From positions 1 to 34,485 of the forward strand of contig JAISGH010000075.1 of assembly GCA_031263185.1 (NCBI GenBank): DNA of 34,485 nt. Reading direction: 5' to 3'. Below are positions 27,809 to 34,485 of this stretch, in pieces; position 1 is the stretch's first letter, and the number at the start of each line of letters is the position of its first letter. The stretch is from Prevotellaceae bacterium. Its GTDB lineage: Bacteria > Bacteroidota > Bacteroidia > Bacteroidales > UBA932. The notes under the pieces are model-generated. The model worked only from the letters and a program-made list of their open reading frames with translations. It was not told the origin of the DNA and did no database searches. The translations under genes and the position numbers were made by a program.

Positions 27809-29350
27809 TCACTTCTGCTTTCTCTCCGCCGGTTGGGCGCTTCCGCCGTTATTCTTGACGGGGTTGAGCGGCTGCTTACTTACCGGCTGCGCCGACGATG
27901 GCGTTAGCGCGTTAAGCGGAAGCTTTGAGCCTGTTGTTTTGTATGTATTGAACAGCGGGTTTATGATGTTGAGCAGCGACCATGTTTTCTTTTTATCGCC
28001 GGTTGGCTTTGGGCCTCCCACCAGCAAGTTCACCCCAGCCCGGAGGTTAAACTTTTGCGCTGTTTGGTAGTTGGCGGCAAGTATATTATCGCAAATGATG
28101 TGCAGCTGCATGTCGCGCCGCCCAAAGAGTAGCCCCAGCCCGAGGTTGTGGCTGTGGCCGTAGCTGTACGAAAGGCTTCCGTTAATGGGGTATTTTCTGG
28201 TATTTAGCGACAGCGCAAGCAGGGGGTAGGTGTTGTAGCGGCCAACGGTAATGGCAGCCAGCGCGCCGGCAACGATGTGCTCGTTCAGCGAGTATGAAAC
28301 GCCGATGGACATGGTGGGCGACGTCCACTGCAAAGCCTTCCTGCTGCTGCCGGTAAACAGCTCCGACTTTAGCGAGTCCACAATGCCGATTAAGTTGTGC
28401 GTATCGCCGGTACTCTGCACGCCGCTAAAAGTCTGAACAAAGTTGCCTCTTTGCAGCGCCACGTGCTTGCTGTCCCACGTGATACCTCCAAAGTTGACAA
28501 TGCTTCCGGACACGGTGAATTGTTCGAACTTGATGTCAAAACCCGCGTCAATTCCCCACCCTTTGCCCGAAAAACCATCGTACTTGTAGGAGCCTGCGTT
28601 AATGGTGTCGTAAGAAAATACTCCTTCGGAGGGTATATTGGACGGGATGCCGGCAATGTTTGCTTCGGGGGTTAGCCCCACGGTTGAGGTCCAGCTGTAG
28701 GGGTCGGTGTACATAAAGGCGGCATTTCCAAAATTCATATCAACAGACGCTACTCCCATCAGCCGCTTTACTTTGCCGCCAACGGTAACTTTATCGCGCA
28801 CCACTTCTTTGGAAACGCCGAGCGCAATCTCTGCGTAGGATGCCAGGTACGCTCCCAAGCCGCCCAGGGACATTGCTTGCCCCATGTAGGGAGCGTTTCC
28901 GCGCCATGCCAGCTTGACAAGGTCTCCGGGAACGCCCGCCTCAAATCGCGTTTTTTCGGCAATATCAAGCGTAAAGTACATGCCGCCTATAAACGCGCCT
29001 ACGTTAAGCACGTTAACGTCTAAGTTGGCGTACCCGCTCTCCCGAAAGGAGGCGTTTTCTGCCGTTCGGGTCAACCGCGGGGAGTTGCTTAAAAGGTTGC
29101 CGACGTTCATGCCGCCGAGCGTTATACCTCCGTCAACGTATATGGAGGATAGCATGGGGAACCCGACGTAAACGCTCCCTGCTTCGGGCTGAAAAGCGGG
29201 GTTGAGCATATTCACCGCCGGCAGGTCGCGCATGAAGTACATCGTCGCGTTGTGCTGCGCCTGCGCTCTGCTGCGAGGCAACAGAGCGGCTGCAAGCGTT
29301 AACCCTGCAAAAACAGCATTTTTTACTATTTGACGATATTCAACGTTCAA
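27809..29350 (-). CDS. DUF5723-family outer-membrane protein B
   Basis: A 513-residue exported protein, probably an outer-membrane beta-barrel. Signal peptide ends near 'RSRAQAQ'. Then 'TMYFMRDLPAVNMLNPAFQP', 'GSVYVGFPMLSSIYVDGGIT' and repeated alternating strands ('LSYSYGHSHNLGLGLLFGRR', 'AQKFNLRAGVNLLVGG'). It ends in a Ser/Pro/Lys-rich tail. Paralog of the protein at 30506-32251. No ATG is in frame before residue 37; the start appears to be the TTG at 29350, after a run of nine A's, so a slippage-prone leader or alternative start is possible. Second member of pair B (lipoprotein at 29556). Function unknown. Confidence 0.8.
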   Translation of the reverse strand: MNVEYRQIVKNAVFAGLTLAAALLPRSRAQAQHNATMYFMRDLPAVNMLNPAFQPEAGSVYVGFPMLSSIYVDGGITLGGMNVGNLLSNSPRLTRTAENASFRESGYANLDVNVLNVGAFIGGMYFTLDIAEKTRFEAGVPGDLVKLAWRGNAPYMGQAMSLGGLGAYLASYAEIALGVSKEVVRDKVTVGGKVKRLMGVASVDMNFGNAAFMYTDPYSWTSTVGLTPEANIAGIPSNIPSEGVFSYDTINAGSYKYDGFSGKGWGIDAGFDIKFEQFTVSGSIVNFGGITWDSKHVALQRGNFVQTFSGVQSTGDTHNLIGIVDSLKSELFTGSSRKALQWTSPTMSIGVSYSLNEHIVAGALAAITVGRYNTYPLLALSLNTRKYPINGSLSYSYGHSHNLGLGLLFGRRDMQLHIICDNILAANYQTAQKFNLRAGVNLLVGGPKPTGDKKKTWSLLNIINPLFNTYKTTGSKLPLNALTPSSAQPVSKQPLNPVKNNGGSAQPAERKQK

Positions 29351-29408
29351 GATTATTTTTCTTTTTTTTTGTGTATAACTTCCAAAGTCAAAAATTACAC
29401 AGCAATAA

Positions 29409-29525
29409 TCAATGTTTTAAATTATGTGATATTTTAGGTACATCTAAATTGTAAATATTATAAGCGAATGGCCCATACTGCTCGTCTATAAAGGTATCAA
29501 GCGTTGTTACGTTTTTTTTGTTCAT
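29409..29525 (-). pseudogene. N-terminal remnant of a HigA-like XRE antitoxin
   Basis: The minus strand has MNKKNVTTLDTFIDEQYG then 20 unrelated residues and a stop. From memory this opening matches HigA-type antitoxins (TLD.FID..YG..GT..R..FE.G). The helix-turn-helix part and the toxin gene are absent. It sits in the gap between lipoprotein B and DUF5723 protein B. Confidence 0.45.
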
Positions 29526-29555
29526 ATTCGTTCTTTATTTTAAGTGCTTTTGCTA

Positions 29556-30467
29556 TCACTCCACGGCGTCGCCAAAAGTTGCTTTCAGCATAAGGCCTAT
29601 GGATACGTTTACCTTCAGGTTGTGCAAGTCCTTCACCTGATTGAGCGTTAGCCCCAACGCAGGGGAAAAAATGCGGGTGGTAAAGCCGCCTATTGATGAG
29701 ATGAGCAGCTTCGCTTCCTGCCCGCCGTAGTCATGAACGATGCGTACTTTATTCTCTGCTTTTTGGGGAAAGGGCATTTCGATGCCATTTTTACCATCTG
29801 CATACAGCATGCTGTCAATAACAGCGCTGTCAACATTGTACATATCTGCTTGTAGCTTTGCGTTTACCTGCAGCTTGCTACTCGCAAGTACTTGTATTTT
29901 TATCCACTGTATTTGATTAATCTCGTCAAAATTGGCTGCTTGCTTTATATCTATGCTCATTGAACCTTTGAAGTCGATGTACCGGCCGGCAAGCAGGGAG
30001 TCGATTTCTGCCCTGAAAGAGGTATCCCGCCCCTTTACTTCGTCCATAATTTCGTAGGCAAAGCGATTAATAGCAAAAAACTGTCCGTTGCTACGAAAGC
30101 TATCCATCAGCGCATTCAGCAAGCTCAACGGGTCTGTGTGTCCGCTATCCCATCTATCAATAAGAATCATAAAGTTACCTATTTGGCTACGGATTTCCGC
30201 CGACAAGCTCTCTTCTACCGAGCGATCCATCGAATCCTGCAGCACGATAATGGCTCTGGCCAGCGAGTTTTTTTGCAGAGCAGACGGTATCCGCTCAAAG
30301 AGATTCTTTGTAAGAGTATCTATTCCCAAATATTGAGAAATATCCACATCAAACAAAGCCAACGATAGCGCCATCTCCGGCTCCCACTTCTTCTCGTCGT
30401 TGTTGGAGCAGGCAGCAAATATGCAGCATAAAAGAGCTGCGCAAACATTCAGCCTGATAAAGTACAT
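29556..30467 (-). CDS. Lipoprotein B, partner of DUF5723 protein B
   Basis: A 303-residue lipoprotein: signal 'ALLCCIFAAC' with lipidated Cys20, followed by 'SNNDEKKWEPEMALSLALFD'. This opening matches that of lipoprotein A at 32281-33366 ('CQNDDNWKPTWALPLV'), so the two are paralogs. The middle (about 60-150) is helical and charged; the C-terminal half is predicted beta-rich ('SMSIDIKQAANFDEINQIQW', 'GGQEAKLLISSIGGFTTRIF'). Function unknown. Inferred to be periplasmic/outer-membrane-anchored and to work with the DUF5723 barrel encoded next, as in pair A. Confidence 0.7.
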   Translation of the reverse strand: MYFIRLNVCAALLCCIFAACSNNDEKKWEPEMALSLALFDVDISQYLGIDTLTKNLFERIPSALQKNSLARAIIVLQDSMDRSVEESLSAEIRSQIGNFMILIDRWDSGHTDPLSLLNALMDSFRSNGQFFAINRFAYEIMDEVKGRDTSFRAEIDSLLAGRYIDFKGSMSIDIKQAANFDEINQIQWIKIQVLASSKLQVNAKLQADMYNVDSAVIDSMLYADGKNGIEMPFPQKAENKVRIVHDYGGQEAKLLISSIGGFTTRIFSPALGLTLNQVKDLHNLKVNVSIGLMLKATFGDAVE

Positions 30468-30477
30468 AATTATTAAA

Positions 30478-30497
30478 TTTTACACCTTACACCTTAC
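30478..30497. repeat. Short tandem repeat ACACCTTAC
   Basis: Two to three copies of ACACCTT between lipoprotein gene B and DUF5723 gene A. Minor simple repeat. Confidence 0.4.
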
Positions 30498-30505
30498 AAA
30501 AGCAG

Positions 30506-32251
30506 CTATTTATTTTTTTTCCTGGCTTTAGCCTCATCTTCGGCTTCCTCTCGCATTGCCTTTTGCAGCAGCGTTTCCTTTGGTTGGCTTTGGTTTCCGG
30601 ACGGCTTTACGCTTTTTTGTGGTTTTTTTTTAACTTTTACGTCAACGCCATCCTCATTTTCTTCCTGCAATGCCTGCCTCAGCAGCTCCTCCCTGCTCTG
30701 CTTTCGCTTCGTCGTTTTTTTTACGCTCTTCACCGTATCCTGAATTGCTGCTGCCGAATCTTGCCGGTGTGCAAAGTCGTGAATGGCAGCGATTGTATCC
30801 CGCTGCGTTTCCTCGTAAAGAATTTGCCTCGATGCTGCTGCGGTATCAACAAATCCGTTGTCCGGCGCAAGAGCGTCGCTGCCGCCGCCACCGCCGCCTA
30901 CAGGCCTGCGCGCCGTCCTGCCTTTGCCGAACAAAAAGTTAAGCCCCACGCGGAGGTTGGCGTTTTGCGCCGTCTTGTAGCTTACAACGGACAAAAGGTT
31001 GTCGGTAACGATGTGCCACTGCACTGCCTTGCGGCCAAGAAGCAGGCCTACGCCTACGTTGCTGTGGCGGTTGTAGTAGCTGTAGGCCGCGCTGAGGTTC
31101 ACCATAAAGCCCTGCGTGTTGGCCGACAGCCCCACCAGCGGCGAACTCTCATCCTGAGAAAATCGGTAGCCAACCAGCGCTCCAACGTTGAAATACTTGT
31201 GCAGCTCGTACGTAGCGCCGGCGTATATGGTTGGCGACAGCCACTTGCGCTCGCTGCCGGCGGTTGACGTTACGCGGGTTTTTTGCTTCACGGAGTCAAG
31301 CAAGCCCGAAACAAAATCGCTGCCGCCACTCAGGGAAATTCCGTCAAACGAAATTTCGCCGTTCGGGGTTTCCTGCCCCATTTTGTAGCCGCTCCAATTG
31401 ATAAACCCGAGGTCGAGCGCGCTTGCCGACACGTTCAGCCCTTTGACCCAAGGCAAATCCCAGCTGCCGCCAAGGTCAAAAGCCACCCCCTGGTTGCCTG
31501 TGTTAAACTTGTAGGTACCCAAACCCGCTTCGGTCAGCTTGTCTATCGTAAAAGTTCCCTGAGGCACTGTAACAGGTAGGCCGGAGAGGTAAATATCGGG
31601 GTTAAGAACTACGGTAATGTCGTAGGAATCTTTTTCCGTCCTGAAAGAAGACCCGTCGCCCAATTCGACGTTCATGTAGCCAACCCCCTGCAGGTATTTT
31701 GCTTTTACCCCCAGAAAAGCATTTTTTGCCACCTCCACAGATACCCCCAGCGCAATTTCTCCGTAGCCCAGCGCCGATACGCTCAAGCCTCCCAAGTCGA
31801 GGTTTTCTCCGAGAATTTCGTCGTGGCCGTTGCCGTACCATACCAACCGCTTCAAATCTTTCGGTATGCGCCCTTCTACGTTGAGCTTGAACTTGCTGTC
31901 GAAGGTAAAGTATATATTCTTTACCATGAAGCCCAAGTTGATGAAGTTGTGCTCGTAGTCAAGAGCAGCCTTGTTGAAGTCGCCTGCGCCATTCACAATA
32001 GCCCCGTAGTTGGCGTTAAGGTAGGCGTTGCCGAGCGTTAAACCCTCACCCGACAGCGTCAGGTTGGGCGAAAACGACGTTAACCCCGGAAACCCGACGT
32101 ACAGGCTCCCGTTGCGGGGCTGGAATGCGGGGTTGAGCTGGTTGTTCAGCGGCAAGTCTTTCATGTGGTACAGGGTAGAGTTAAGCTGAGCGTAAACTTT
32201 TACCGACATTGCCGCCAGCAGGCAGGCTATAAGCAGAACGAAATGTTTCAT
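30506..32251 (-). CDS. DUF5723-family outer-membrane protein A with charged C-terminal tail
   Basis: A 581-residue exported protein: signal MKHFVLLIACLLAAMSVKVY, cleavage likely after 'AQ'. Then 'TLYHMKDLPLNNQLNPAFQP', 'GSLYVGFPGLTSF' and a beta-rich barrel region to about 455 ('AAYSYYNRHSNVGVGLLLGR', 'YKTAQNANLRVGLNFLFG'). A Gly linker follows, then a 125-residue Lys/Glu-rich tail with an internal repeat: 'REELLRQALQEENED' (about 515-530) and 'KETLLQKAMREEAED' (about 557-571). Protein B lacks this repeated tail. If the barrel ends are as drawn, the tail would be periplasmic and could bind peptidoglycan or a partner. Starts 29 bases after lipoprotein A; same operon. Confidence 0.82.
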   Translation of the reverse strand: MKHFVLLIACLLAAMSVKVYAQLNSTLYHMKDLPLNNQLNPAFQPRNGSLYVGFPGLTSFSPNLTLSGEGLTLGNAYLNANYGAIVNGAGDFNKAALDYEHNFINLGFMVKNIYFTFDSKFKLNVEGRIPKDLKRLVWYGNGHDEILGENLDLGGLSVSALGYGEIALGVSVEVAKNAFLGVKAKYLQGVGYMNVELGDGSSFRTEKDSYDITVVLNPDIYLSGLPVTVPQGTFTIDKLTEAGLGTYKFNTGNQGVAFDLGGSWDLPWVKGLNVSASALDLGFINWSGYKMGQETPNGEISFDGISLSGGSDFVSGLLDSVKQKTRVTSTAGSERKWLSPTIYAGATYELHKYFNVGALVGYRFSQDESSPLVGLSANTQGFMVNLSAAYSYYNRHSNVGVGLLLGRKAVQWHIVTDNLLSVVSYKTAQNANLRVGLNFLFGKGRTARRPVGGGGGGSDALAPDNGFVDTAAASRQILYEETQRDTIAAIHDFAHRQDSAAAIQDTVKSVKKTTKRKQSREELLRQALQEENEDGVDVKVKKKPQKSVKPSGNQSQPKETLLQKAMREEAEDEAKARKKNK

Positions 32252-32280
32252 AGCAGCATTGTATCAAATATTTTTAAGGG

Positions 32281-33366
32281 CTAAAAGGTAAGCTTGCTCA
32301 TGGCTGCCTGCACTCTTACGCGCACGCGGAAAGAGATACCTTGCGCCGATAGCGTTCGAAGGATTTCTTTACCAATTGTTCCACTTCTCTCACATTTTAC
32401 GCTAAACTTTACATATTGAGTCTGTTCAACTATTTTATCTAATTCCTTCTCTCCTTTATTAAAATTAAGGGGCGGAGGAGGATTGTTCAAATCAACGTTG
32501 ATTTCTTTAAATATATCATTCACATTAATACCTTGGGCATCAACAAAATTAGCGCTGAAGTTGAATTTAAAAGGCAGGTCATCATCTTTACTCTTTGCAA
32601 TATCTATGTAAAGCTCAATGGAGGATATTGCCCCTCCTTTGGCGTAATCTGCAAAATTAATGGGTATAGAGTCGGTCATTTGCGCTTCCAGCAGAACACT
32701 ATCTATTTGGCTGTTTATAGAGTCAATGTAGTTATTACCATCGCTACCCATAGCCGAAAGCACATTGGCTGCCGTAATAAATATATCGGTAGGATGTATC
32801 ATAGCGTCCAGCAAGTTGTTAATGGCCGAATCTCCTCCGTGGTTGCCGCCGCTGCTCGAGCTTTTGGGAGTTGCTTTGCTTTTTGCCATTGGGTTTGGCG
32901 GGTTGTTGCCATTTTGCAACAGCTCCGGATGGGCTGTATAGTAAGCTGTCAGAAATTGGTTGATTTGGTCTATCTTAGCCTCCACATCAGGGCTATCACC
33001 AAGATTTTCTTTAATCAGGTTTTTGGTGGAGTCATTCAATACGGGAGCGCTGTTGTCGGGGAATGTTACGTAGGTATCGCCATTATTCACAAGTACAATG
33101 TAGGCTATTGAGTCAACATTGACGCTATCGCTATAGGTATTCAAACCAAAATGTTCTTCTACGTAGCTGTTCCACTGCTGCCTTACTTGCTTGTTAACTT
33201 CTTCTACGTCGCCATCCGCTATAAAATCTCCAATGCGGATAGTCTGCTCCTTTACCAGCGGTAAAGCCCATGTGGGCTTCCAATTGTCATCATTCTGACA
33301 CGAAACAGCAGCGGCTGCTATAACCGGCAGCAGCGCAATCAAAAAATATCTAAGTTTTAACTTCAT
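32281..33366 (-). CDS. Lipoprotein A, partner of DUF5723 protein A
   Basis: A 361-residue lipoprotein: signal 'LPVIAAAAVSC' with lipidated Cys23, followed by 'QNDDNWKPTWALPLVKEQTI'. Middle region (about 60-200) with a Ser/Gly/Asn-rich linker ('KSKATPKSSSSGGNHGG'), then 'ISSIELYIDIAKSKDDDLPF' and a beta-rich C-terminus ending 'VRVRVQAAMSKLTF'. Paralog of lipoprotein B by its N-terminus and layout. It directly precedes DUF5723 gene A. Function not known; I infer an outer-membrane lipoprotein subunit of a two-part complex. It starts 59 bases after gmhA with no clear promoter, so read-through is possible. Confidence 0.7.
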   Translation of the reverse strand: MKLKLRYFLIALLPVIAAAAVSCQNDDNWKPTWALPLVKEQTIRIGDFIADGDVEEVNKQVRQQWNSYVEEHFGLNTYSDSVNVDSIAYIVLVNNGDTYVTFPDNSAPVLNDSTKNLIKENLGDSPDVEAKIDQINQFLTAYYTAHPELLQNGNNPPNPMAKSKATPKSSSSGGNHGGDSAINNLLDAMIHPTDIFITAANVLSAMGSDGNNYIDSINSQIDSVLLEAQMTDSIPINFADYAKGGAISSIELYIDIAKSKDDDLPFKFNFSANFVDAQGINVNDIFKEINVDLNNPPPPLNFNKGEKELDKIVEQTQYVKFSVKCERSGTIGKEILRTLSAQGISFRVRVRVQAAMSKLTF

Positions 33367-34041: not shown

Positions 34042-34485
34042 TCAACTTTTACTTCTTAGAGCAGCCAACTCGGCAGCCATAGCTTCCATTCTGGCCAAGG
34101 CTTGCTCTTTTTCGGTGCGCTCGCGCTCTTTCTCGGCAAGGGCGCGCTCTTTTTCGGCAAGGGCACGCTCTTTTTCGGTGCGCTCGCGCTCTTTCTCAGC
34201 ACGCTCATGAGCCAGGGCTTGCTCTTTCTCGGCAATTATTGGCAGGAGTTCATTGCGGGCTTCCAGCTTGCCCACGTCTATCGCAGAGGCCACTGCGCTC
34301 CGGTTTTCACTCCGGATCCGCTGCAGGTAGTCGTACTCGCGACGCTCCGACTCCGTCAGGTTCTCCCGCTGCAGCGCGTCGCGCGCCTTCATTAAACCTT
34401 TCGCCCTAAACTCGTCCTTAATCGCGTTGTGCTTCAAAAAGTAAATCCACTCGTCTAACGTATCCTTGGCAACACCGTTAAAAGT
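34042..34485 (-). CDS. Rpn-family recombination-promoting nuclease/transposase, C-terminal part (runs off window)
   Basis: Only the last about 147 residues are in the window; the frame continues past 34485. '[20 protein letters not shown]', '[20 protein letters not shown]', 'EYDYLQRIR' are typical of the end of the Rpn/PD-(D/E)XK-transposase family, whose catalytic domain would lie upstream. The tail (about the last 65 residues) is a Glu/Lys/Arg coiled coil made of 7-residue repeats ([14 protein letters not shown]). Such proteins are predicted DNA nucleases promoting RecA-independent recombination. Precedes gmhA by 22 bases. Confidence 0.7.
34097..34238. repeat. 21-base tandem repeat coding a coiled coil
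   Basis: Five to six units of 21 bases (such as GCGCTCTTTCTCGGCAAGG plus 2) in the tail of the Rpn-family gene, each coding one heptad of E, K, R and A. Copy number is likely to vary between strains. Confidence 0.75.

Follow-up and report, generated by a model that had tools for sequence, protein, structure and literature searches.

The pairing of a lipoprotein gene with a gene for a barrel protein of the DUF5723 family is phylum-wide in Bacteroidota and is not special to the locus described here, a 34,485-nucleotide stretch of DNA from a Prevotellaceae bacterium (the window) in which the pair occurs twice in a row. The two proteins likely form an apparently uncharacterised cell-surface complex, and this complex is probably a dedicated anchor pair of the BamG–BamH kind that displays a variable ectodomain. 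The gene order, the paralogy of the genes, their co-occurrence, the shared lipoprotein domain, the predicted barrel fold and the NPA motif have all been computed.

The window is contig C148, from a genome that is 86.6% complete. The order lipoprotein A, DUF5723 A, lipoprotein B, DUF5723 B on one strand, as read in the initial annotation, is confirmed by the open reading frames, all of which are on the minus strand. Lipoprotein A (lipA, 32281-33366, 361 aa) carries a signal peptide and a lipidated Cys23, and is composed of an acidic opening (CQNDDNW), a tether motif (W.PTWALPL), a predicted helical middle and a predicted C-terminal beta-sandwich. It is followed by barrel A (barA, 30506-32251, 581 aa), a DUF5723 protein with a predicted FadL-like barrel at residues ~22-445 and a charged, probably periplasmic tail of ~136 residues. 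Lipoprotein B (lipB, 29556-30467, 303 aa) also has a signal peptide, with a lipidated Cys20 and the opening CSNNDEKKWEPEMAL, and by profile its C-terminal domain is the same as that of lipA. Barrel B (barB, 27809-29350, 513 aa, TTG start) is the DUF5723 paralogue. A long charged tail had been ascribed to A and denied to B; this is correct for barA, but barB is also tailed, though its tail is shorter. The operon structure is based on gene spacing because promoter and terminator scans gave hits at chance level only.

The lipB-barB spacer (29351-29555, minus strand, 205 bases) is the remnant of a toxin-antitoxin gene pair. In the nearest relative (L063:5465-5945), genes for a Gp49-like toxin and an HTH antitoxin lie as a pair between lipB and barB. 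The window retains only the toxin end and the antitoxin start, a decayed insertion in an otherwise tight pair. A repeat-containing protein is encoded at the window end (34042-34437), and a related protein is found at the same place in the nearest relative.

An order-level survey of 61 related genomes detected DUF5723 in 40 genomes, including 28 of the 41 of high quality, and none in the remaining 21. After 8 barrels at contig edges were excluded from the 64 found around DUF5723 matches, 56 were testable. An upstream, same-strand lipoprotein of the superfamily accompanies 52 of these 56 barrels and directly adjoins 50 of them, with a gap that is mostly within ~60 bases and often an overlap. The other two paired barrels have a small insertion in between (L063, and L102, where the match is weak). 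The four barrels without a lipoprotein (L109-L112) form one separate divergent clade. At least two members of this clade carry an OmpA domain. The number of partners can vary, as at L079:642-4108, where a single DUF5723 barrel is preceded by two tandem partner lipoproteins.

The iterated lipoprotein profiles used in this survey drew on loci surrounding DUF5723, and profile drift was checked by a genome-wide search and by controls with unrelated (barrel) profiles. Genome-wide, the lipoprotein profile matches 34 of the 40 DUF5723 genomes and none of the 21 genomes without DUF5723 (Fisher p 2.4e-11, with the kinship of the genomes ignored). The matches adjoin DUF5723 or a contig end, with a sole true orphan (G023:C70). 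The claim that each lipoprotein is the dedicated partner of its barrel is thus supported by the adjacency, by this genome-wide tie and by the cognate pairing of A with A and B with B described below.

In a sample of the phylum, 32 of 53 barrels have an adjoining upstream lipoprotein (counted by hand), across other classes, and most of these partners match the order-level profiles, with E-values down to 1e-36 in other classes. The other 21 barrels have no partner; they follow other genes and resemble separate lineages of paralogues. A second DUF5723 lineage lies directly behind a UvrD/PcrA-like helicase gene at four loci of other classes (L159, L160, L162, L165), and at four further loci DUF5723 follows an oxidoreductase-like gene (L161, L170, L172, L173). 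Since some lineages are partnerless, both here and in the L109-L112 clade, a DUF5723 barrel can presumably work without a partner.

The two lipoproteins had been described as sharing a C-x-N-D..W.P..AL opening. After the lipidated Cys they read CQNDDNWKPTWALPL and CSNNDEKKWEPEMALSL, in which W.P..AL is common to both, while C-x-N-D is only approximate because the spacing from Cys to motif differs by two residues between lipA and lipB. No similarity emerged when lipA and lipB were compared directly by BLASTP, and the two were therefore compared by profiles. With orthologues added, the family profiles align over the C-terminal ~140 residues (96.5% probability, E 1e-9), so that the similarity extends well beyond the first 30 residues; control comparisons of the lipoproteins against barrel alignments gave E-values of 0.47 and 0.08. 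The same C-terminal regions also align, at E 1.9e-9 and 1.1e-7, with lipoproteins that precede DUF5723 in families elsewhere in the order. Short partners (frames of 203-248 aa, for example L093, L094 and L101) match the end of the long profile only, at positions ~395-546, which suggests that a minimal partner consists of the lipid anchor, the tether motif and the C-terminal domain. The middle of the partner lipoproteins is variable, with total lengths from 195 to 1279 aa, and the partners of the phylum sample again show the tether (W or F, P, then P[LIV]).

No Pfam or NCBIfam family scored in lipA or lipB. DUF4621 (PF15414) gave no profile match to either protein, and the link to this family runs via the shared C-terminal domain of their homologues. 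In related partner lipoproteins, the C-terminal part overlaps with DUF4621, and all seven matches of this family among the 61 genomes are DUF5723 partner lipoproteins. The lipoprotein family profile also matches PDB entry 4h3w by sequence (2.3e-17), which is the DUF4621 protein BDI_1231 of Parabacteroides distasonis; a PDB sequence search with the lipA profile returned nothing. DUF4621 belongs to the partner lipoprotein superfamily. The structure model of the lipoprotein (66.4) is weak and has a helical middle and a C-terminal beta-sandwich. It has no match in the PDB under E 0.001, and among its weak matches are a chondroitin-sulfate-binding module, whose fold type is also given for a portion of BamH (PMC12611786), and 4h3w (probability 1.00, E 0.019).

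Both barrels are assigned to Pfam DUF5723 (PF18990; 7.7e-59 and 2.5e-53), with full-length profile scores of 182.6 and 200.7 bits against a curated cut-off of 26.8. They are 35% identical over 443 aa, and the common motifs listed in the initial annotation (TLYHMKDLP/TMYFMRDLP, NPAFQP, VGFP and AQ..NLR.G.N) all fall within this alignment. The identity between A- and B-lipoproteins is ~12-17%, and by this comparison the lipoproteins have diverged faster than the barrels. In a quick tree of 22 rows, the A-barrels and B-barrels are sister clades (support 100), each of which holds the genus and G034, a genome of another genus in the same family. On this tree, the barrel duplication is older than the split of the two sister genera. 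At the loci of congeners, the neighbours of A-barrels match the A profile best and those of B-barrels the B profile, with no swap. The kept cognate pairing, together with sister barrel clades that predate the genus split, indicates that the whole module was duplicated and then diverged, as had been proposed.

The barrel was modelled with AF2 from 21 related sequences at moderate confidence (mean pLDDT 65.5, core mostly 70-90), and the model shows ~14 long strands, with the tail starting at residue 446. A Foldseek search of the PDB with this model matched BamG chains of the F. johnsoniae, B. thetaiotaomicron and P. gingivalis BAM complexes near the top (9n2d_B, 1.8e-6; 9hiv_F, 1.4e-5; 9hjm_F, 2.6e-5), together with TodX (1.3e-5), FadL (2.3e-5), TbuX and CymD, at TM-scores of 0.3-0.5. 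TonB-type and porin barrels are also in the list, and a TonB-dependent receptor comes first on E-value with a poor TM-score. As a result, the FadL assignment is taken from the cluster of BamG, TodX and FadL matches in combination with a motif. Among 20 order-wide barrels, N40 and P41 are invariant and A42 is nearly so, and these residues match the NPA motif that PDB entry 2r4o names for FadL. DUF5723 is thus predicted to have a FadL-type fold that is structurally near BamG. This prediction and the NPA motif are new here, as are the acidic residues of the partners and the OmpA domains described below. By sequence, neither barrel matches the FadL family (PF03349), and a search of the PDB with the DUF5723 profile, at E up to 10, returned no chain. 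At L057:1363-4191 (G002), an A-type DUF5723 protein of 942 aa is fused to a second predicted barrel domain (OMP_b-brl) that scores just under the Pfam cut-off, possibly a double barrel.

The fold matches to TodX, TbuX, CymD and FadL, and the conserved NPA hatch motif, also bring a FadL-like transporter of hydrophobic molecules into consideration. The 14-strand barrel would then be the channel and the lipoprotein a surface receptor that captures the substrate, in a division of labour similar to that of SusCD, and the variable ectodomain (195 to 1279 aa) would fit the choice of substrate. On the other hand, neither in the window nor at the genus loci do catabolic genes adjoin the module, and the structural matches that rank beside TodX include BamG, a FadL relative that acts as a scaffold. 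We consider transport unlikely, although it fares best among the alternatives to an anchor pair. The likeness to the FadL/TodX family lies in the predicted fold and in the position of the NPA motif near the N-terminus; unlike in that family, PF03349 is matched in the relatives by genes other than these, and at the threshold used it has no match in the window's genome. Similarly, as in SusCD, a barrel and a lipoprotein (here inferred to be at the surface) are encoded side by side. SusC is a 22-strand TonB-dependent barrel with a plug, and its gene is the first in the operon. By comparison, the DUF5723 barrel is smaller and the lipoprotein gene comes first. Pfam assigns the barrels to DUF5723 only, and the lipoproteins have no SusD match.

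The closest parallel is with the BAM complex of the same phylum, in which BamG holds the N-terminal tail of the surface lipoprotein BamH, and with the paired genes of the BamG2-BamH2 operon (PMC12611786, PMC12578637). As with BamG-BamH, the module described here would combine a predicted FadL-type barrel with a putative surface lipoprotein that has acidic residues after the Cys, and, as with BamG2-BamH2, the two genes are paired. In contrast to BamG, DUF5723 is not universal in Bacteroidota (40 of the 61 relatives). The DUF5723 profile has no sequence match to the BamG chains in the PDB, nor do the lipoprotein profiles match the BamH chains. Identity with BamG was rejected since a third of the genomes lack DUF5723 and the sequence profile shows no relation between the two.

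The same comparison raises an accessory role in outer-membrane assembly, in which the pair, in the manner of BamGH, would join BamA to handle certain substrates. The closest structures to the barrel model include BamG, and BamG2-BamH2 pairs without a known role exist in the phylum (PMC12578637, PMC12611786). However, neither of the two BAM papers names a DUF family among the subunits (PMC12611786, PMC12578637), DUF5723 is absent from 21 of the 61 genomes, and its sequence profile finds no BamG chain. We regard this role as improbable, clearly more so than transport. A part in type 9 secretion, with the barrel as a PorV/PorP-like shuttle or anchor and the lipoprotein as secreted passenger, is far less probable still. 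A translocon barrel chain (6h3i_F) occurs lower among the fold matches, and the marker SprA is present in most relatives. But the distribution of DUF5723 does not follow SprA, and membership was rejected: many genomes have SprA without DUF5723, and seven have DUF5723 without SprA (G016, G019, G021, G025, G026, G028, G032), six of them at least 95% complete, which argues that the pair is not dependent on this system. It is equally hard to credit that the two genes are unrelated envelope neighbours brought together by general clustering or by a drifted profile, for although the profiles were iterated from DUF5723-flanking loci and some barrels are partnerless, genome-wide matches lie almost only beside DUF5723, the profile-profile controls are clean and near-zero-gap adjacency persists across classes.

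The anchor pair is the reading that we prefer. Acidic residues directly after the Cys are a feature of surface export in BamH-K (PMC12578637). Such residues are present in lipA (CQNDDNW) and lipB (CSNNDEK). When the Cys was located with a rough caller, 50 of 75 partners had them, compared with 29 of 213 other ORFs of the same loci; this control is rough because many of the 213 ORFs are not lipoproteins. The partner lipoprotein is therefore probably surface-facing. The window's own genome encodes a third DUF5723 paralogue on contig C58 (L070:2722-4932), with a partner lipoprotein upstream. In this paralogue and its relatives (L074, L075), the barrel is followed by TSP_3 repeats and an OmpA peptidoglycan-binding domain, which places the C-terminus of the barrel in the periplasm.

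On this basis, each unit would be a dedicated outer-membrane complex built on a FadL-type DUF5723 barrel, with the conserved N-terminal tail of the barrel (TLY.M.DLP..N.LNPAFQP, which holds the NPA motif) lying in or at the barrel. The lipoprotein would be exported to the cell surface, held in physical contact with the barrel by the conserved tether that closely follows the lipidated Cys, and would show its C-terminal beta-sandwich and variable middle outside the cell. The C-terminus of the barrel would face the periplasm, where some members would add the OmpA peptidoglycan-binding domain. We infer that the barrel serves as dedicated anchor and scaffold, in the way that BamG serves BamH, for a surface lipoprotein that evolves fast, and that in the window's lineage the whole pair was tandem-duplicated and then diverged. 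More tentatively, at a little short of even chances in our estimation, the pair may represent an undescribed complex of the whole phylum in which a FadL-like barrel anchor joins a surface lipoprotein to, in some members, the peptidoglycan, with BamG-BamH as a specialised relative or a parallel.

Complexes of a barrel and a surface lipoprotein are a known type in Bacteroidota, and the DUF5723-lipoprotein pair appears undescribed in the literature searched. No mention of DUF5723 was found in that literature, which left subscription journals largely outside, and the sole mention of DUF4621 was in an unrelated plant study. The conservation of the pair from Bacteroidales to other classes gives two uncharacterised families a defined partner. 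The pair would also add a likely case to the FadL-type barrels that are linked with surface lipoproteins, and it lends itself to simple tests in laboratory strains of Bacteroides or Flavobacterium.
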